A stretch of DNA of 18,021 bases. It comes from Alistipes sp. GTDB taxonomy: Bacteria > Bacteroidota > Bacteroidia > Bacteroidales > Rikenellaceae. Shown in pieces: positions 1 to 8,004 of this stretch. The position numbers were made by a program, and so were the translations under genes. The stretch covers positions 1-18,021 of the forward strand of contig JAFYOF010000066.1 of the NCBI GenBank assembly GCA_017560305.1, written 5' to 3'. Every line of letters starts with the position of its first letter. The first letter of the stretch is position 1. The notes under the pieces were generated by a model. It did not search any database and was not told the origin of the DNA. It worked only from the letters and a program-made list of their open reading frames with translations.

Positions 1-672
1 GAAGATACCCTGGATAGCACCCATCAATGTACCACGCTCACCTGTAAGGTCAGAATATACCTCACGCTTGAATGTTGTCTCGAACAAGTAACCTGAACCT
101 ACACCGATACCGAGTGCGATTACGCGGTCCCAAGCCTTACCAGTTGCATCCTGGAAGATAGCGTAGCTTGAGTTCAAACCGCGACCCTGCAAGAACATAC
201 GGCGGAGTGATGTACCCGAGCCCTTTGGAGCAACCAAGATAACATCAACATCTGCTGGAGGAACGATACCTGTGCGCTCCTTGTAGGTGATGCCGAAGCC
301 GTGTGAGAAGTAGAGTGCCTTGCCTGGGGTGAGGTATGGCTTGATTGTAGGCCATACAGAAATCTGACCAGCGTCAGAGAGCAAGTACTCGATGATGGTT
401 GCCTTCTGGCAAGCCTCCTCAATCTCGAACAATGTCTCACCTGGTACCCAGCCATCCTCTACAGCCTTGTCCCAGCTCTTTGAGCCCTTACGCTGACCAA
501 CGATTACATTGAAACCGTTGTCACGCAAGTTGAGTGACTGACCAGGACCCTGCACACCATAACCGATAACTGCGATAGTCTCATCCTTCAATGTCTCCAA
601 GGCCTTTGCCAATGGATATTCCTCTCGTGTTACGACATTCTCTTCAACGCCGCCAAAAATCATCTTTGCCAT
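1..672 (-). CDS. ilvC: Ketol-acid reductoisomerase, N-terminal 224 residues (C-terminus beyond window)
   Basis: Second common enzyme of valine/isoleucine synthesis: it rearranges and reduces acetolactate or acetohydroxybutyrate to the dihydroxy acid using NAD(P)H and Mg2+. The reading frame runs from an ATG at 672 through the left edge without a stop. It contains the Rossmann motif AVIGYGVQGPGQSLNLRDNG at about residues 34-53, followed by the cofactor-specificity loop VGQRKGSKSW, whose Arg and Ser residues suggest NADPH. Further on are SHGFGI and the APKGSGTSLRR segment of the family, and the end of the visible part (SGYLFETTFKREVYSDLTGE) enters the knotted helical domain that carries metal-binding acidic residues. 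Bacteroidetes homologues are about 350 residues, so roughly a third is missing beyond the edge. It starts 27 nt after the ilvN stop and is the fourth gene of the ilv operon. No Shine-Dalgarno sequence is apparent. The identification is secure. Confidence 0.96.
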   Translation of the reverse strand, partial: MAKMIFGGVEENVVTREEYPLAKALETLKDETIAVIGYGVQGPGQSLNLRDNGFNVIVGQRKGSKSWDKAVEDGWVPGETLFEIEEACQKATIIEYLLSDAGQISVWPTIKPYLTPGKALYFSHGFGITYKERTGIVPPADVDVILVAPKGSGTSLRRMFLQGRGLNSSYAIFQDATGKAWDRVIALGIGVGSGYLFETTFKREVYSDLTGERGTLMGAIQGIF

Positions 673-699: not shown

Positions 700-1248
700 T
701 TATTTGTTTTCTATGTTGTTTCGCAAAATGCGATCTCTCTTTTCGTTTACATATTGCAGATACTCATCCAGAAGCTCTCTGCGTGATTTGATGATAGCCA
801 CCTGACCCGAACTTACGAACTGATAGATGCCGTAGGGGGCAAGCATCTGGTAGAGTTCATCAATCTCTGATTTGTGACCTGTCTTCTCCAGAACGATATA
901 CTCGTCGTGAATCTCCAGGATGCGTACATTGTGTCGGCGTACCATATCCTCCACATTGCGGCTTCGCTTAACCTTGTAGAGCGCCAGCTGCTGCATTACA
1001 ACCTCGTTTGGTGAGAAGCAGAATACCTTCAGCACCTCCACCTTCTTTTCAATCTGCTTTACAAGGTTTGCCACTCGCTCGGGGTCGTTCTTCACCGCAA
1101 TGGTGTATTTGTGAATGCCCTCAATAGCCGATGGTGAAGCCGCGATTGACTCGATGTTTACATTACGATGGGTAAAGACCGTTGTCACTTGACTCAAGAT
1201 ACCCACCTTGTTCTCCGAAAATATGGTAATGATAAATTCCTTCTCCAT
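700..1248 (-). CDS. ilvN: Acetolactate synthase small (regulatory) subunit, 182 aa
   Basis: Regulatory subunit of acetohydroxyacid synthase; it binds the catalytic subunit IlvB and usually confers valine feedback inhibition. Residues 1-77 form an ACT domain that begins EFIITIFSENKVGILSQVTTVF and continues with RNVNIESIAASPSAIEGIHKYTI. This has the expected Gly in the ligand-binding turn (NKVGIL) and the NIESI strand. Residues 85-165 form the second ferredoxin-like domain of small subunits, with RSRNVEDMVRRHNVRILEIHDEYIVLEKTGHKSEIDEL. The length is normal for the long IlvN/IlvH type. It lies between ilvB (18 nt upstream) and ilvC (27 nt downstream) and is evidently cotranscribed. Which effector it senses cannot be read from the sequence. 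The symbol ilvN is used by convention; ilvH would be equally defensible. Confidence 0.95.
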   Translation of the reverse strand: MEKEFIITIFSENKVGILSQVTTVFTHRNVNIESIAASPSAIEGIHKYTIAVKNDPERVANLVKQIEKKVEVLKVFCFSPNEVVMQQLALYKVKRSRNVEDMVRRHNVRILEIHDEYIVLEKTGHKSEIDELYQMLAPYGIYQFVSSGQVAIIKSRRELLDEYLQYVNEKRDRILRNNIENK

Positions 1249-1267: not shown

Positions 1268-3001
1268 TTACTCAAGTCTTATATCGTGTACCGGTGCACC
1301 TGCTGGCACCATTGGGAATACATTCTCCTCCTTCTCTACGCGACACTCCAGAAGGAAAGCGCCTTCTGTGGAGTGCATCTCGCGGATGGCATCGTCCAAA
1401 TCCTCGTGACGCTCAACGCATCGGTAGGCGATATGGTTTGCCTTGGCGAGTAGCTCGAAATCGGGGTTTACCAATTCTGTGAACGAGTAGCGCTTGTCGT
1501 AGAAGAGCTCCTGCCACTGGCGTACCATACCGAGGAAGCCGTTGTTCATCAGGATAATCTTCACGCCCACCTGCGACTGGTAGATTGTGCCCAACTCCTG
1601 CGATGTCATCTGCAGACCGCCATCACCCACGAAGAGGCATACATCTCGCTCTGGTGCGCCAATCTTTGCACCGATGGCTGCTGGCAAGCCGAAGCCCATT
1701 GTGCCCAGACCACCCGAGGTGATTATGCTGCGGCTGCGCTTGAACTTGAAGTATTTCGAGGCGAACATCTGCTGCTGACCCACATCGGTTACAAGTATAG
1801 CGTCGTCAAACTCCTTCGATACGGCATCCACCACCTCACCCATACGCAGGTGCGCTCCGCGGCGCTCGATGGCTGGGTTGATGATATCCTCGCGCTCGAT
1901 GTTGGCGCATACTCTGAACTCGTCAATCCACGCCGAGTGGTCGTTCTTGGCGATGCGCTCGGTAATCATCGGCAACGACTCCTTGATATCGCCCAGCACT
2001 GGGACATCGGCATAGACAATCTTGTTAATCTCGGCAGGGTCAATCTCCAGATGGATAACTTTTGCGTTGATGCCGAACTTCGAAGCGTCGCCCGTTACTC
2101 TATCGTCGAAACGCATACCGATTGCAATCAGCAGGTCGCAGTCGCGGTTTTTGATGTTTGGACCATAGTTGCCGTGCATACCCAGCATTCCTACATACTG
2201 CGGATGGTTGCTTGGCAGAGCCGACAGACCCAGAAGGGTAGAGGCTGCGGGGATACCGCTCTTCTCCAGGAACTCCTTCAACTCCTGCTCGGCGTTGGCA
2301 AGGATTACTCCCTGACCGATGAGCGCCATAGGCTTGCGTGAGAGGTTAATCAAACGCACCGCCTCCAAAATCTGGTCGCTACAGATGTCGGCGTAGGGCT
2401 GATAACTGCGGATAAACTTGATTGGGTTATAATCGAAGTTGGTCAAGCCATTCTGTGCATCCTTCGTGATATCGACCACCACAGGGCCTGGGCGGCCGCT
2501 CGATGCGATGTAGAAGGCGCGGGCGATGGCCTCGGGGATATCCTCGGCGCGCTTCACCTGACAATTCCACTTTGTTACCGACTGTGTAATCTCTATGAAG
2601 TTAATCTCCTGAAAGGCGTCTGTGCCGAGCTGGCTTGATGCCACCTGACCGCTGATAAGCACGATAGGGGTTGAGTCGAGCAGCGCATCAGCCAAACCTG
2701 TCACGGTGTTCGTTGCACCTGGACCCGAGGTCACGATGCAGACACCGGTCTTGCCCGTTGCTCGCGCATAGCCCTGCGCTGCGTGCAGAGCACACTGCTC
2801 GTGACGCACCAGAATGTGGTTAATCTGGTCACGATAGTCGTAGAGCGCATTGTATACGGGGATGATAGCACCGCCTGGGTAGCCAAAGATTGTCTCCACA
2901 CCCTCGGCGAGGAATGAGCGGATGACAGCCTCCGAGCCCGTGATGCGGGGCAACTCCTTGGCGGGTTGTGCCGCCGTAGTATCTGAAAAACCTGAATTCA
3001 T
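1268..3001 (-). CDS. ilvB: Acetolactate synthase large (catalytic) subunit, 577 aa
   Basis: Thiamine-diphosphate enzyme that condenses two pyruvates to acetolactate, or pyruvate plus 2-oxobutyrate to acetohydroxybutyrate, the committed step of the pathway. The order is the PYR domain, with catalytic Glu68 in VRHEQCALHAAQGYA and the GYPGGAIIPVY opening; the central FAD-binding domain (IGMRFDDRVTGD at about 294-305); then the PP domain with the ThDP/Mg motif GDGGLQM (459-465) ending at the NN pair 486-487. The MVRQWQELFY segment after the NN pair is typical of biosynthetic AHAS rather than of catabolic AlsS or other ThDP enzymes. The neighbouring ilvN supports the biosynthetic role. The start at 3001 is the first ATG, and the preceding gene ilvD ends 19 nt earlier. 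No Shine-Dalgarno sequence is visible. Confidence 0.97.
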   Translation of the reverse strand: MNSGFSDTTAAQPAKELPRITGSEAVIRSFLAEGVETIFGYPGGAIIPVYNALYDYRDQINHILVRHEQCALHAAQGYARATGKTGVCIVTSGPGATNTVTGLADALLDSTPIVLISGQVASSQLGTDAFQEINFIEITQSVTKWNCQVKRAEDIPEAIARAFYIASSGRPGPVVVDITKDAQNGLTNFDYNPIKFIRSYQPYADICSDQILEAVRLINLSRKPMALIGQGVILANAEQELKEFLEKSGIPAASTLLGLSALPSNHPQYVGMLGMHGNYGPNIKNRDCDLLIAIGMRFDDRVTGDASKFGINAKVIHLEIDPAEINKIVYADVPVLGDIKESLPMITERIAKNDHSAWIDEFRVCANIEREDIINPAIERRGAHLRMGEVVDAVSKEFDDAILVTDVGQQQMFASKYFKFKRSRSIITSGGLGTMGFGLPAAIGAKIGAPERDVCLFVGDGGLQMTSQELGTIYQSQVGVKIILMNNGFLGMVRQWQELFYDKRYSFTELVNPDFELLAKANHIAYRCVERHEDLDDAIREMHSTEGAFLLECRVEKEENVFPMVPAGAPVHDIRLE

Positions 3002-3020: not shown

Positions 3021-4841
3021 TTACTCTTCTGGAACGATTCTCACTGCGCCCTGATCTGCCGAACTTACCAATAATGAGTAGGCACGCAACGACTGTGGAA
3101 TCTTTCTGTCGCGGTTTGCTGGCTTGTGGATTGTCCAAGCGGCCATTCTCTCGGTCAACTCCTCATCTGTGATGCGGAGGTTGATTGAGCGGGCTGCGAT
3201 GTCGATGTCGATGATGTCACCACTCTGGATGATACCAATCTCACCGCCCGAAGCGGCCTCTGGCGAGATGTGACCGATTGACAAGCCCGATGTTCCGCCC
3301 GAGAAGCGGCCGTCGGTAATCAATGCACACGCCTTGTCCAGATGCTTTGACTTGAGGTAAGAGGTAGGGTAGAGCATCTCCTGCATACCAGGGCCTCCCT
3401 TTGGACCTTCGTAGCGGATAACCACCACATCGCCAGCCTCGACCTCGCCGCCAAGGATGCCGTTCATAGCCTGCTCCTGCGACTCGAATACCTTTGCCTT
3501 GCCCGAGAACTGCATCAGCGACTGGTCTACGCCAGCGGTCTTTACGATGCAACCCTTGCGGGCGATGTTGCCAGTCAGAACAGCCAGACCGCCATCGCGG
3601 AAGTAGCAATGCTCCATATCGCGGATGCAACCCTCTGCGTGGTCGTCGTCCATCTGCTCGTAATAGCACTCCTGTGAGCCCATTTCGCGGCTGTAACGAT
3701 TCGCTGGGGCGCTGCAATAGATGTTGCGAGCCTCCTCCGAGAAGTTCTCCGAGCCGAAGTAGTACTCGTCAATAACCTCTGCCAATGAAGGTGCATCAAC
3801 ACGCTTTGCCGATGTATCAATCAAACCATTCTTCGCCAACTCGCCGAGGATGCCCATAATGCCGCCTGCGCGGTTTACATCCTGAATGTGGTAGTGGCCG
3901 TTTGGTGCAACCTTGCAGAGCACAGGAATCTTGCGTGAGAGGCGGTCGATGTCCGCCATTGTGAAGTCCACACCCGCCTCGTGAGCCACAGCCAGGAGGT
4001 GGAGGACTGTATTTGTTGAGCCACCCATCGCGATGTCGAGCGACATAGCATTCTCGAAGGCAGCCTTCGTTGCGATTGAGCGTGGAAGAACCGACTCATC
4101 ACCCTCGAAGTAGTAACGCTTGGCGTTCTCTACGATAAGTTTCGCCGCCTTCGCAAAGAGAGCCTTGCGATTGGTGTGAGTTGCAACGATTGTTCCGTTG
4201 CCAGGCAATGCCAAGCCGATAGCCTCGTTCAGGCAGTTCATCGAGTTCGCTGTGAACATACCCGAGCACGAGCCGCAACCTGGGCAGGCGCACGCCTCAA
4301 TCTCGTCGGCGTCAGCGTCGGTGCAGTTTTCGTCGGCACTCAACACCATAGCATCAATCAGGTCGGCACCTCTGCCACGGAAGTTACCTGCCTCCATAGG
4401 TCCGCCCGATACGAAGATTGTTGGGATGTTAAGGCGCATCGAAGCCATAAGCATGCCTGGGGTAATCTTGTCGCAGTTGCTGATGCAGACCAAGGCGTCC
4501 ACCTTGTGGGCGTTTGCCATATACTCAACGCTGTCGGCAATGATGTCGCGCGAAGGCAGCGAGTAGAGCATCCCATCGTGCCCCATAGCGATACCATCGT
4601 CAATGGCGATGGTGTTGAACTCGGCGGCGAAGCAGCCCTGCTCCTCGATTAATGACTTTACATACTGACCTATCTCGTGGAGGTGAACATGACCTGGCAC
4701 CATCTGTGTGAAGGAGTTTGCGATGCCGATAACGGGCATTCCCATCTGCTCCTTCTTCATTCCGTTAGCCCTCCAGAGGGCTCTTGCTCCTGCCATACGA
4801 CGACCGATGGTTGTGATGGCGCTTCTTAATTGGTGTTTCAT
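3021..4841 (-). CDS. ilvD: Dihydroxy-acid dehydratase, 606 aa
   Basis: Iron-sulfur dehydratase that converts the dihydroxy acids to 2-keto acids, the third common step of Val/Ile (and Leu precursor) synthesis. Close family motifs run along its length: [13 protein letters not shown] near the N-terminus, [40 protein letters not shown] with the cluster Cys123 and the adjacent Lys, and [20 protein letters not shown] with the second ligand region at Cys189/Cys192. Near the C-terminus are [13 protein letters not shown] and [20 protein letters not shown]. The length is normal. I chose the ATG at 4841 (MKHQLRS), which matches the usual family N-terminus. An in-frame TTG three codons upstream (4850) would fall in the tail of the terminator hairpin and is unlikely. 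It is the first structural gene of the operon, 13 nt downstream of a terminator-like hairpin and preceded by the attenuator leader. Confidence 0.97.
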
Positions 4842-4854
4842 AACTTTCAAAGTT

Positions 4855-4888
4855 AAAAGCCCTTCTCCAAAGTGGGAGAAAGGCTCTT
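4855..4888 (-). terminator. Attenuator terminator hairpin before ilvD
   Basis: On the minus strand a stem of 11 pairs (5' arm 4885-4875, 3' arm 4868-4858, one G-U) encloses a 6-nt loop CACTTT. Three A-U pairs and one G-U can extend it to 14 pairs using 4888-4886 and 4857-4855. The 3' arm runs directly into TTTTAACTTT, a short U-rich tract, and the ilvD ATG follows 13 nt later. A strong intrinsic-terminator shape between the promoter and the first gene of its own operon means conditional termination. The 5' arm is also the exact complement of a strand just after the leader-peptide stop. The U-tract is only moderately rich, so a translational (start-occluding) effect is a possible alternative. 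Confidence 0.8.
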
Positions 4889-4925
4889 AAAATTTCGTCA
4901 AATATATACATACAACCTTTCTCCC
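4874..4925 (-). promoter_or_regulatory. Antiterminator pairing in the ilv leader
   Basis: On the minus strand the decamer GGGAGAAAGG (4925-4916) is an uninterrupted perfect complement of CCTTTCTCCC (4883-4874), with 32 nt between the arms. The second arm is the 5' half of the downstream terminator stem, so the two hairpins cannot coexist. The first arm begins one base after the leader-peptide stop codon. A ribosome finishing the peptide would cover it and allow the terminator. A ribosome stalled at the Ile/Leu codons upstream would leave it free to form this antiterminator. The pairing is directly visible; the mechanism is inferred from the classical attenuator model. Confidence 0.75.
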
Positions 4926-4926
4926 G

Positions 4927-4983
4927 TTATCTCTGCAAGAGTACGAGGTTTAGGTTGATGATAATTGACAAATTGCTTAACAT
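4927..4983 (-). CDS. ilv operon leader peptide, 18 aa (MLSNLSIIINLNLVLLQR)
   Basis: A short frame from ATG 4983 to TAA 4927 encodes MLSNLSIIINLNLVLLQR. Ten of its 18 residues are branched-chain amino acids (six Leu, a run of three Ile, one Val), exactly the products of the operon that follows. The Leu codons are varied (TTA, TTG, CTA, CTC, CTC, TTG), including TTA and CTA, which look scarce in the neighbouring long genes. It starts about 65 nt after the predicted transcription start and ends 85 nt before ilvD. It is not expected to be a functional protein; its translation should report charged Leu/Ile/Val tRNA levels. There is no strong Shine-Dalgarno sequence (a GAGAAT stretch precedes the ATG). 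Such a composition is very unlikely to arise by chance at this position, given the hairpins immediately after it. Confidence 0.8.
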   Translation of the reverse strand: MLSNLSIIINLNLVLLQR

Positions 4984-5053: not shown

Positions 5054-5084
5054 CAAATGTAATAGTAAAATTTATTAAAAACAA
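5054..5084 (-). promoter_or_regulatory. Bacteroidetes-type promoter of the ilv operon
   Basis: On the minus strand TACATTTG (5061-5054) is a perfect TAnnTTTG -7 element, and TTG (5084-5082) lies 20 nt upstream as a -33 element. Transcription would start near 5048. This gives a leader of about 205 nt to the ilvD start, containing the leader peptide and both hairpins. The same spacing is seen in front of lpxK. An AT-rich block surrounds it. Confidence 0.65.
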
Positions 5085-5245: not shown

Positions 5246-6157
5246 TTACTTTTTCGCGTTGCGGTGAGCGTGGTGCTTGCTATTTGTCGGTGGCGCAGTT
5301 TTGGGGCGGGGCAGATAGAGCCTTCGGGTTGTGCCCACCTTATCGAAGCCAAGTAGACCCTCCTCAATAAGCCCATCAATCAGAAGGTCGGTCTGGTAGC
5401 GGTCGAGCGAGAAAACCACCTCAATCTCAACCGAATAGAGAGTTTTGAAGCGCCTTACAAAATCCACCACATTGGCTTTCGATGGCCCTGTGCGGCGGGG
5501 TTTTACGGTATCAGCAGTGAGGCGGGAGATGATGGTATGGAAGGTGGCGAGGTTCTGGTATCCGCCCACGATGACCTCCTTGTCGTCGTAGCGGATGATG
5601 TAGGTGGGAAATCCCGTTACGCCGTTGCGGCGGCAGAACATCCGCTCCTGCTGGAAGTCGGCATACGCCTCGCCCGTGGTGTACAGGTCAATGAATTCCG
5701 CAGGCTGGTATCCCGCCTCACTCGCCAGCGACAGCAGCACATCAATCTGCGAGGTGCGCTTGCCCCAAACGAATGTCGCCTCACGCATCAGTCGCAGAAA
5801 GTGCGGGGCGCGCTTGGGATTTAGTCGCTTTGCCACCTCATAGGCTATGTTTTGCGGGAAACTTGAGGTGTAGCGCTCGGTGAAGAACGGAGCGAAAGGA
5901 TTTTCGACGGGCATCCCGTGTTTCTCGGCGGCGCTCTGCCAGTTGTGGAGGATGATTTCGTTTGCCTGTCGGATGATGTCCGACTTCTCGCCGCGCAGGT
6001 CAAAGAGCGTGGTGATATCCTCCACCAGACCACCCATAACATACTCAATCTTAACCTTTTCGCCGTAGAGATACTCGATGGCTCGCATAACGGGGTCGTT
6101 GCCCCAGCACCAGACGCAGATGGGGTCGGTGAACTGCAAAATAGTGACGCTTTTCAT
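5246..6157 (-). CDS. DsbA/FrnE-family thioredoxin-fold protein with C-terminal extension, 303 aa
   Basis: Likely a cytoplasmic thiol-disulfide oxidoreductase or adaptor. The N-terminus TILQFTDPICVWCWGNDPV has the FrnE-like DP-x-C-x-x-CWG active site (Cys14, Cys17) after the first strand. An inserted helical region follows (about 60-170), then the cis-Pro loop GVTGFPTYII (Pro184) and the closing strand and helix GGYQNLATFHTII, ending near residue 212. Residues about 225-283 (VVDFVRRFKTLYSVEIEVVF to RRLYLP) are not part of the thioredoxin fold and read like a small winged-helix-type domain. The tail is basic and His-rich. There is no signal peptide, so it should act inside the cell. FrnE-type proteins and SpxH/YjbH-type ClpXP adaptors share this fold, and I cannot tell which role applies. 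The gene stands alone, divergent from the DUF2148-luxS cluster. Confidence 0.8.
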   Translation of the reverse strand: MKSVTILQFTDPICVWCWGNDPVMRAIEYLYGEKVKIEYVMGGLVEDITTLFDLRGEKSDIIRQANEIILHNWQSAAEKHGMPVENPFAPFFTERYTSSFPQNIAYEVAKRLNPKRAPHFLRLMREATFVWGKRTSQIDVLLSLASEAGYQPAEFIDLYTTGEAYADFQQERMFCRRNGVTGFPTYIIRYDDKEVIVGGYQNLATFHTIISRLTADTVKPRRTGPSKANVVDFVRRFKTLYSVEIEVVFSLDRYQTDLLIDGLIEEGLLGFDKVGTTRRLYLPRPKTAPPTNSKHHAHRNAKK

Positions 6158-6898: not shown

Positions 6899-7417
6899 AT
6901 GGAGAGCAAAAAATCAGTTGTCTCATCATTCGATGTTGACCATATCACCCTGAAGGCGGGTCTTTATCTGCGTTCGGTATATACCATTAACGACGAGTTT
7001 GCGGTGCACTCTTGGGATATGCGTTTCCGCGCACCTATGGACCACGCTCCACTCGGCGCCGAGGAGGTGCACACCATCGAGCACCTGATGGCCTACCACC
7101 TGCGTCTGGACCCAGTCATCGGTCATAGCATCGTGTCGTTCTGCCCTATGGGTTGTAAGACAGGTTTCTATCTCTCGACAATGAACGATATCACAGCCGA
7201 GCAGATTCGTGAGGCCTTGGGTCGTGTCTACAAGCAGGTGTTCCCGCTCAAGTCAAAGGATGATATCGTAGGCTTGAACGAGGTACAGTGCGGTAACCCG
7301 GGTCTTTACGCCGTGGCAACAACAAACTTCGCTATGGCACAGTATATGCGTGCGCTCTATACTCCCGAGGAGGCTAAGGAGGCAGGTATTGAGTCAATCT
7401 ATAATTGCGTTTGGTAA
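6899..7417 (+). CDS. luxS: S-ribosylhomocysteine lyase (LuxS), 172 aa
   Basis: Cleaves S-ribosylhomocysteine to homocysteine and DPD, the precursor of autoinducer-2, in the cytosol. The metal site is visible as H58-T-I-E-H62 in EEVHTIEHLMA, with Cys131 in NEVQCGNPGLY as third ligand. The catalytic Cys86 lies in SFCPMGCKTGFY. The N-terminal SFDVDHITLKAGLYLR and the IWSWD-like HSWDMRFRAP segments are family hallmarks, and the length is slightly above the usual 155-165. Its stop codon overlaps the start of the nucleosidase gene that makes its substrate (TAATG), which strongly supports a joint detoxification and recycling role. Whether AI-2 serves as a signal here cannot be judged. Confidence 0.97.
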   Translation: MESKKSVVSSFDVDHITLKAGLYLRSVYTINDEFAVHSWDMRFRAPMDHAPLGAEEVHTIEHLMAYHLRLDPVIGHSIVSFCPMGCKTGFYLSTMNDITAEQIREALGRVYKQVFPLKSKDDIVGLNEVQCGNPGLYAVATTNFAMAQYMRALYTPEEAKEAGIESIYNCVW

Positions 7418-8004
7418 TGAAGTACTTAATCATTGCTCCTACCGAGAGAGAGTATCGCAACATCACTCGCGCTCTTGAGAAGAGAACCACCGAGAACCAG
7501 TATCTTGTGACCCGTTGTGGCGTGGGTAAGGCTTTGGCGGCGGCAAATACGGCGCTTGCCATTGCGCAGCTCAACGGCGAACTCAACCGCGTGGCAGTTA
7601 TCGGCTATGCCGCTTCGACTCTGGGTCGCAAGCGTGGCGAGTTGGTAGCCCCTCGTGTGGCTCGCTACCACGATTGCCGCATCCCTGGCGACTTCGTTCC
7701 CGAACTCACAGACCCACACCCTCTGCTTGGTCACGATGACGCGGTGGTGTGGACTGGCGATTCGTTTGTTGATGGCGAGATTATTGCCGATGTGAAAGCA
7801 AAGTATGGCTTGAAGTCGGGTCTTTTCGATATGGAGGCTACGGCGGTGTGTCAGGCGGCGGAGTTGTTCGACCTGCCCGTGGTGGTTATCAAGATGGTGT
7901 CGGATGTTCCCGAGGAGGGCGACAACGAGCACTCTTACGACGAGTTCGTGGACTCTCACTCCGACTTTAATGTCTTTATCGATTACCTCGAGACCTTGAA
8001 ATAG
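7417..8004 (+). CDS. 5'-methylthioadenosine/S-adenosylhomocysteine nucleosidase-like protein, 195 aa
   Basis: Predicted to hydrolyse S-adenosylhomocysteine (and methylthioadenosine) to adenine and the ribosyl product, supplying LuxS. The PNP/UDP-phosphorylase fold is recognisable from the N-terminal strand with the acidic residue Glu10 (IAPTEREY), the ARYHD motif (82-86), GDSFV (115-119), the substrate-binding FDMEATAVCQAA with Glu140, and Asp163 in KMVSDVPEEGD as catalytic acid. I set the start at ATG 7417, which shares one base with the luxS stop (TAATG) and begins MKYLIIAPTE. An in-frame TTG at 7405 inside luxS is less plausible. At 195 residues it is shorter than the usual 230 or so. The expected TG-x-AGG glycine motif reads VIGYAAS here. 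Futalosine hydrolase is the main alternative, but the luxS coupling favours the methyl cycle. Confidence 0.85.
   Translation: MKYLIIAPTEREYRNITRALEKRTTENQYLVTRCGVGKALAAANTALAIAQLNGELNRVAVIGYAASTLGRKRGELVAPRVARYHDCRIPGDFVPELTDPHPLLGHDDAVVWTGDSFVDGEIIADVKAKYGLKSGLFDMEATAVCQAAELFDLPVVVIKMVSDVPEEGDNEHSYDEFVDSHSDFNVFIDYLETLK

Follow-up and report, generated by a model that had tools for sequence, protein, structure and literature searches.

A predicted leader-peptide attenuator upstream of ilvD in Alistipes and its counterparts across the Bacteroidales

The window analyzed here, a stretch of DNA of 18,021 nucleotides, carries upstream of ilvD a leader which very probably functions as a leader-peptide, ribosome-mediated transcription attenuator controlling the operon ilvD-ilvB-ilvN-ilvC. 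The parts of this attenuator are present in the window, they are conserved in relatives, and its strands covary. On the grounds of anatomy, recurrence, and three-way covariation, the attenuator is by far the best reading of the region. On balance, we also favor the view that the leader belongs to an unlisted cis-regulatory RNA family, old in the Bacteroidales, in which a four-strand ilvD attenuator has kept its three pairings while its sequences drifted.

Anatomy of the operon and its leader

The features on which the argument rests are the following.

1..672, minus strand: ilvC, ketol-acid reductoisomerase, cut by the window end (TIGR00465, 226.0 bits, just below the cut-off of 226.15)
700..1248, minus strand: ilvN/ilvH, acetolactate synthase small subunit (TIGR00119, 84.1 bits, cut-off 56.9; NF008864, 102.2 bits, below the cut-off of 119)
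1268..3001, minus strand: ilvB, acetolactate synthase large subunit (TIGR00118, 683.3 bits, above cut-off)
3021..4841, minus strand: ilvD, dihydroxy-acid dehydratase, 606 aa (NCBIfam NF009103, 1013 bits, and TIGR00110, 776.8 bits, both above cut-off)
4855..4868, minus strand: strand 4, the terminator 3' arm, ending in TTTT (4858-4855) and followed by AACTTT (from sequence and fold)
4874..4888, minus strand: strand 3, comprising the terminator 5' arm (4888-4875) and the antiterminator 3' strand (4885-4874) (from the fold)
4894..4934, minus strand: 3' side of the 1:2 hairpin, which includes strand 2 at 4925-4914 (from the fold)
4914..4925, minus strand: strand 2, the antiterminator 5' strand, GGGAGAAAGGTT (from sequence, fold, and covariation with strand 3 across the order)
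4927..4983, minus strand: leader ORF of 18 aa, MLSNLSIIINLNLVLLQR, followed by TAA (from sequence, with similar leader ORFs in relatives)
4938..4972, minus strand: strand 1, lying within the leader codons and pairing with 4934-4894 as the anti-antiterminator hairpin 1:2 (from the window fold and own-versus-cross pairing)
5054..5084, minus strand: promoter candidate of Bacteroidota type, TTG (5084-5082), a 20-nt spacer, and TACATTTG (5061-5054) (from a pattern match)

The NCBIfam assignments of ilvD, ilvB, ilvN, and the cut ilvC, whose TIGR00465 match has 191 of 314 positions inside the window, identify an operon for the same amino acids that the leader codons specify. The leader ORF, read on the minus strand from its ATG at 4983-4981 to its TAA at 4929-4927, is rich in these codons, with Leu, Ile, or Val at 10 of its 18 residues. 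As an earlier note on this DNA had observed, a single base (4926) separates the stop codon from strand 2. The exact 10-nt complementarity claimed in the same note, between GGGAGAAAGG (4925-4916) and CCTTTCTCCC (4883-4874), is indeed present over 10 bp, and the 2:3 helix is extended by two further pairs, one of them U-G, to 4914/4885, for 12 pairs in total. The terminator stem described there as sharing an arm with the antiterminator is likewise found, as 14 pairs, some G-U, between 4888-4875 and 4868-4855, with TTTT as its last bases and a loop at 4874-4869. The window fold thus contains a predicted intrinsic terminator between the leader ORF and the first gene, with a 14-pair stem and a short TTTT, and a mutually exclusive antiterminator which begins near the leader stop and uses the terminator 5' arm. 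By eye, a small extra hairpin also seems to be present in the interval from promoter to leader ORF, at about 5041-5005 in the window and also in two related loci (L001 and L003).

A strong 1:2 hairpin

The absence of a strong competing 1:2 hairpin, and with it a minimal three-segment attenuator, had been proposed for this leader; neither is borne out. Strand 1 (4972-4938) forms 29 pairs with 4934-4894, in a hairpin that covers leader codons as well as strand 2 and so makes the element four-stranded. The leader up to strand 3 folds at -24.3 kcal/mol, a value for the whole fold containing this hairpin. The 1:2 duplex of the window has -23.0 kcal/mol; when partners are taken from other species instead, only 1.1% of the combinations reach this strength. 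We therefore rejected the three-segment model on the basis of the 1:2 window fold and the own-versus-cross pairing tests, and a 1:2 hairpin within the leader codons that competes with 2:3 is found both in the window duplex and in the order-level tests.

In an alignment of 16 leaders, the window and 15 Alistipes-type relatives, the successive 1:2 helices are paired in 55.0, 63.4, 91.7, 100, and 53.1% of cells from the outside to the apex. Overall, 75.7% of the 1:2 cells are paired, a value reached by 16 of 500 shuffles, and the best slid version (+2) gives 67.3%. Double changes in 1:2 are weak, the same count being reached by 175 of 500 shuffles. For 2:3, 96.4% of cells are paired in these leaders, but no pair has changed on both sides and the shuffles are not beaten, whereas 3:4 has 95.1% of cells paired and three pairs changed on both sides. 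Since column covariation among the 16 leaders is weak for 1:2 and uninformative for 2:3, the claim for 1:2 rests on the order-level tests.

Recurrence upstream of ilvD in the Bacteroidales

To the window we added 152 ilvD upstream regions of the same order, close relatives included, giving 153 regions. The sample was drawn from the ilvD matches listed, and 11 of the listed places lie outside it (G630, G563, G687, G474, G370, G450, G388, G666, G452, G387, and G454). The detector used looks for a short L/I/V-rich ORF, a terminator-like hairpin 8 to 85 nt after it, and complementarity of the post-stop sequence to the hairpin 5' side; an earlier version requiring five T missed the window, and the relaxed version, requiring at least four, was used. 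At a score of at least 70, 106 of the 153 regions pass, compared with none of 1530 dinucleotide-preserving shuffles; at 65 or more, the figures are 116/153 and 5/1530. The window itself scores 89. The other 47 members of the order fall below 70, and among seven of these inspected by eye the architecture is seen only in L210; no detector output was obtained at some loci labelled Muribaculaceae, Paramuribaculum, Prevotellaceae, or Prevotella. Five Alistipes-labelled loci outside the 153 (L084, L086, L092, L094, and L095) show the architecture by eye and failed the T-run rule.

Among 29 named non-Bacteroidota ilvD upstream regions, one (L157) passes at 70. Detector output was given by 7 of 27 distant Bacteroidota ilvD upstream regions, with scores of 54 to 71; two of the seven reach at least 70, with near-identical peptides. 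These distant outputs may represent a separate attenuator type or chance. They come with L/I/V-rich ORFs before ilvD, at L030, L038, L042, L043, L048, L052, and L053.

Leaders more than 80% alike were collapsed to one, which reduced 127 leaders to 94; a partial ilvD (L024) was dropped. Removal of the non-Bacteroidota L157 left the set of 93 leaders used below. Val, Leu, and Ile make up 56.7% of the residues in these 93 leaders, a value to be read with the selection of leaders for these residues in mind, the shuffles being the independent control.

Across 393 genomes of the order, an exact motif, GAGAAAGGT-N20..50-CCTTTCTC, has 30 strand-wise matches, which fall at 23 places in 21 genomes, compared with 6 strand-wise matches in 5 genomes for a reversed control pattern. 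At 17 of the 23 places, ilvD follows on the same strand 31 to 193 nt downstream; in the 3 kb retrieved for each of the other six, no ilvD is present. The motif is a strict one: among the 179 genomes of the 393 in which ilvD is matched, few carry it, and even the nearest relative (G001) is without it. Judging from the sequence in L008 and L011 and from the peptide ends in L054, L055, and L093, leader ORFs of some lineages seem to continue through strand 2. There, strand 2 (GAGAAAGG) is read as codons with the stop beyond, which would give the ribosome an alternative means of covering it.

Compensatory changes and pairing tests

In 81 of the 93 leaders, strands 2 and 3 form 6 bp or more without interruption. 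This helix starts at -6 to +8 nt relative to the stop, the search itself having begun at -6 nt. Strands 2, 3, and 4 change together: GAGAAAGG, GTGGAAAGG, GAAGAAAGG, and GAGAATGG each meet their own complement, as do GGAGGGCT, GCGGACTGGAA, CCGGGAAGTT, and other variants. In the 44 of the 81 leaders that lack CTTTCTC on the hairpin 5' side, pairing with the leader's own partner exceeds the cross-species mean in 43 for 2:3 and in 44 for 3:4.

In the first own-versus-cross test, own pairing exceeded cross pairing in 79 of 94 leaders for 1:2, 73 of 94 for 2:3, and 94 of 94 for 3:4, with the control combinations 1:3 and 1:4 at 41/94 and 43/94. Because the detector score in this test includes the 2:3 helix, which could favor 2:3, the test was repeated with ORF and hairpin chosen blind to 2:3; one further leader did not qualify, leaving 92. 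Own pairing then prevailed in 78/92 (1:2), 78/92 (2:3), and 92/92 (3:4), as compared with 45/92 for 1:3, 43/92 for 2:4, and 48/92 for upstream sequence paired with strand 2. The presence of related sequences among the cross partners makes this comparison conservative, and its Wilcoxon statistics ignore shared descent. The earlier note had made its attenuator depend on compensatory changes in related genomes, and these are found at the order level for 2:3, 3:4, and 1:2. Its reading of a leader-peptide attenuator of the ilv operon is supported, without the three-segment form.

Switching logic

In the mechanism that we infer, comprising leader translation, a response to amino acids, termination, and antitermination, RNA polymerase would make a leader of about 195 nt, counted from a start site placed by the promoter-like sequence, and a ribosome would translate the 18-codon leader peptide. 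With charged Leu, Ile, and Val tRNA plentiful, the ribosome would reach the stop and cover strand 2, so that the 3:4 terminator forms and the operon is off. With charged tRNA short, it would stall on a Leu, Ile, or Val codon and open 1:2, so that strand 2 becomes available to strand 3 before the polymerase has produced strand 4; the antiterminator would then keep the operon on. In the window, absence of translation would tend to leave strand 2 held by 1:2, and 3:4 would win.

We modeled this logic by folding the RNA while barring from pairing the roughly 30 nt that a ribosome was assumed to occupy; with this footprint, a ribosome at the stop covers strand 2 as a matter of geometry. In the window, just before strand 4 is transcribed, 2:3 has a predicted probability of 0.37 if no ribosome is present; the value is 0.99 when the A site is at any of codons 1 to 15 and falls to 0.00 for all positions between codon 16 and the stop. 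The modeled switch point thus falls after codon 15 of 18, and 9 of the 10 L/I/V codons lie inside the antitermination zone. The proposal of the earlier note that a ribosome at the stop hides strand 2 and a stalled one frees it agrees with these values (0.00 versus 0.99).

Across 81 leaders, the mean probability of 2:3 is 0.81 with the ribosome on L/I/V codons and 0.00, by geometry, at the stop. Without a ribosome the mean is 0.62, and 53 of the 81 leaders exceed 0.5; only 36 of the 81 gain more than 0.02 in probability when the ribosome stalls on L/I/V codons. An off state without translation is therefore not a general prediction of the model. When strand 4 is present, 3:4 has a probability of at least 0.95 at equilibrium for every ribosome position in the window, and hence regulation would have to be kinetic, decided during transcription.

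Termination and the alternative explanations

The U-tract of the window is short, TTTT followed by AAC, and its hairpin ends just 13 bases before the ilvD ATG (4841). Both features would suit a translational attenuation, with the same leader peptide and hairpins, in which 3:4 blocks ribosome loading on ilvD; so would the same hairpin in the five Alistipes-labelled loci named above, where by eye it is followed by three T or by no T-run. Across the 93 leaders, however, the hairpin ends 11 to 282 nt (median, 33 nt) before the IlvD match, often too far for occlusion, and this range of distances is more readily explained by termination than by blocked initiation at ilvD. A run of at least five T stands at the hairpin end in 79 of the 93 leaders (at least four in all, by detector requirement), which also speaks against translational attenuation, and we consider that explanation improbable.

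The hairpin has the shape of a plain terminator, and a gene at 5246-6157 lies upstream on the same strand as ilvD. It could accordingly be a constitutive or read-through terminator of the upstream transcript accompanied by a chance leader ORF, with no amino acid sensing. We give this explanation very little weight: three features recur in the order, namely an L/I/V ORF with its stop beside strand 2, covariation of 2:3, and pairing of 1:2, and promoter-like sequence lies between the upstream gene and the leader. A long, structured leader could also point to an RNA sensing tRNA or a metabolite, such as a T-box or a branched-chain amino acid riboswitch. In that case the L/I/V-rich ORF would be without a role, and neither the window nor any of 16 related loci, two of them with a common leader, has a match to an Rfam 15 family at its gathering score. 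At E values up to 5 there were five chance-like matches, the sole cis-regulatory one being PyrR, whose 19.2 bits lie below its gathering score of 54. Such a sensor is, in our judgment, extremely improbable, and we retain the transcription attenuator.

Relation to known attenuators

In E. coli and its kin, the ilvGMEDA leader (ilvL) is an attenuator with a Leu/Ile/Val-rich leader peptide and alternative hairpins. The Alistipes leader resembles that of Escherichia coli ilvGMEDA in its L/I/V leader peptide, its alternative hairpins, and the ilv operon downstream; it differs in the gene order, ilvDBNC, and in having no Rfam gathering-score match.

Passages of other work describe related leaders. 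In Listeria monocytogenes, Rli60 upstream of ilvD is an experimentally supported ribosome-mediated attenuator with a leader peptide of branched-chain amino acid codons, and mutants of its start codon and ribosome-binding site had lowered ilvD transcription (PMC5864092). Its likeness to the Alistipes leader is one of architecture as described there, whereas it belongs to a Firmicute, has a 13-aa leader, and is accompanied by the action of CodY (PMC5864092). The ilvBNC leader of Corynebacterium glutamicum is presented with terminator, antiterminator, and antiantiterminator hairpins and with Leu and Val control codons; it differs in coming from an Actinobacterium, in having ilvB first, and in its own terminator/antiterminator overlap (PMC11857589). 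For the similar-looking ilvB leader peptide and hairpins of Streptomyces coelicolor, codon replacement is described as having had no response (PMC1262725), so that anatomy alone is no proof of attenuation. PMC4833913 cites Lopatovskaya 2010 as a comparative survey of attenuators.

Two sources concern the phylum of Alistipes itself, and their passages propose leader peptides for attenuation: in Flavobacterium psychrophilum, strong clues for it ahead of operons for amino acid biosynthesis (PMC9723704), and in Bacteroides thetaiotaomicron, sORFs that are situated in long 5' UTRs, are reminiscent of leader peptides, and are proposed to act in transcription attenuation (PMC7366714). A search of both main texts found no "ilv", and the passages concerned contain no ilvD leader and no hairpins.

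Ribosome-mediated attenuation is thus an already known mechanism. In the literature searched, which was open-licence text, so that an earlier prediction is possible, we found no description of this Bacteroidales ilvD leader or of an order-wide ilvD element. If confirmed, the element would bring textbook regulation to a major gut order whose amino acid control is little described in the searchable literature, and it predicts leader RNAs that vary with Leu, Ile, and Val supply. A four-strand attenuator working as drawn would also imply functional transcription-translation coupling in Bacteroidota and provide a native reporter for it. The switch would need ribosomes to follow RNA polymerase closely, and it could therefore serve as a direct test of such close trailing in Bacteroidota.

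Promoter candidate and genomic context

The pattern TTG-N18..21-TANNTTTG, which we take to be the Bacteroidota promoter consensus, is found in the 150 nt preceding the leader ATG in 64 of the 93 nonredundant leaders, the window included, and in 0.4% of mononucleotide shuffles. The -7 box is present in 80 of the 93 leaders, and the median distance from its end to the leader ATG is 24 nt, so that the 5' UTR would be very short in many leaders. In the window, the box ends at 5054 and the ATG starts at 4983, a longer 5' UTR than in many of them.

The nearest named relative, Alistipes sp. RGIG7724 from water buffalo rectum, has an IlvD 98% identical to that of the window, in agreement with the earlier assignment to a Bacteroidales-type genome. 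In the genus of the nearest genome, an ilvD match is found in only 10 of 37 genomes (G001 to G037), many of which are incomplete, and the operon accordingly appears patchy there. Elsewhere in the window, at 6899-8004, two adjacent ORFs presumably resemble LuxS and a nucleosidase.
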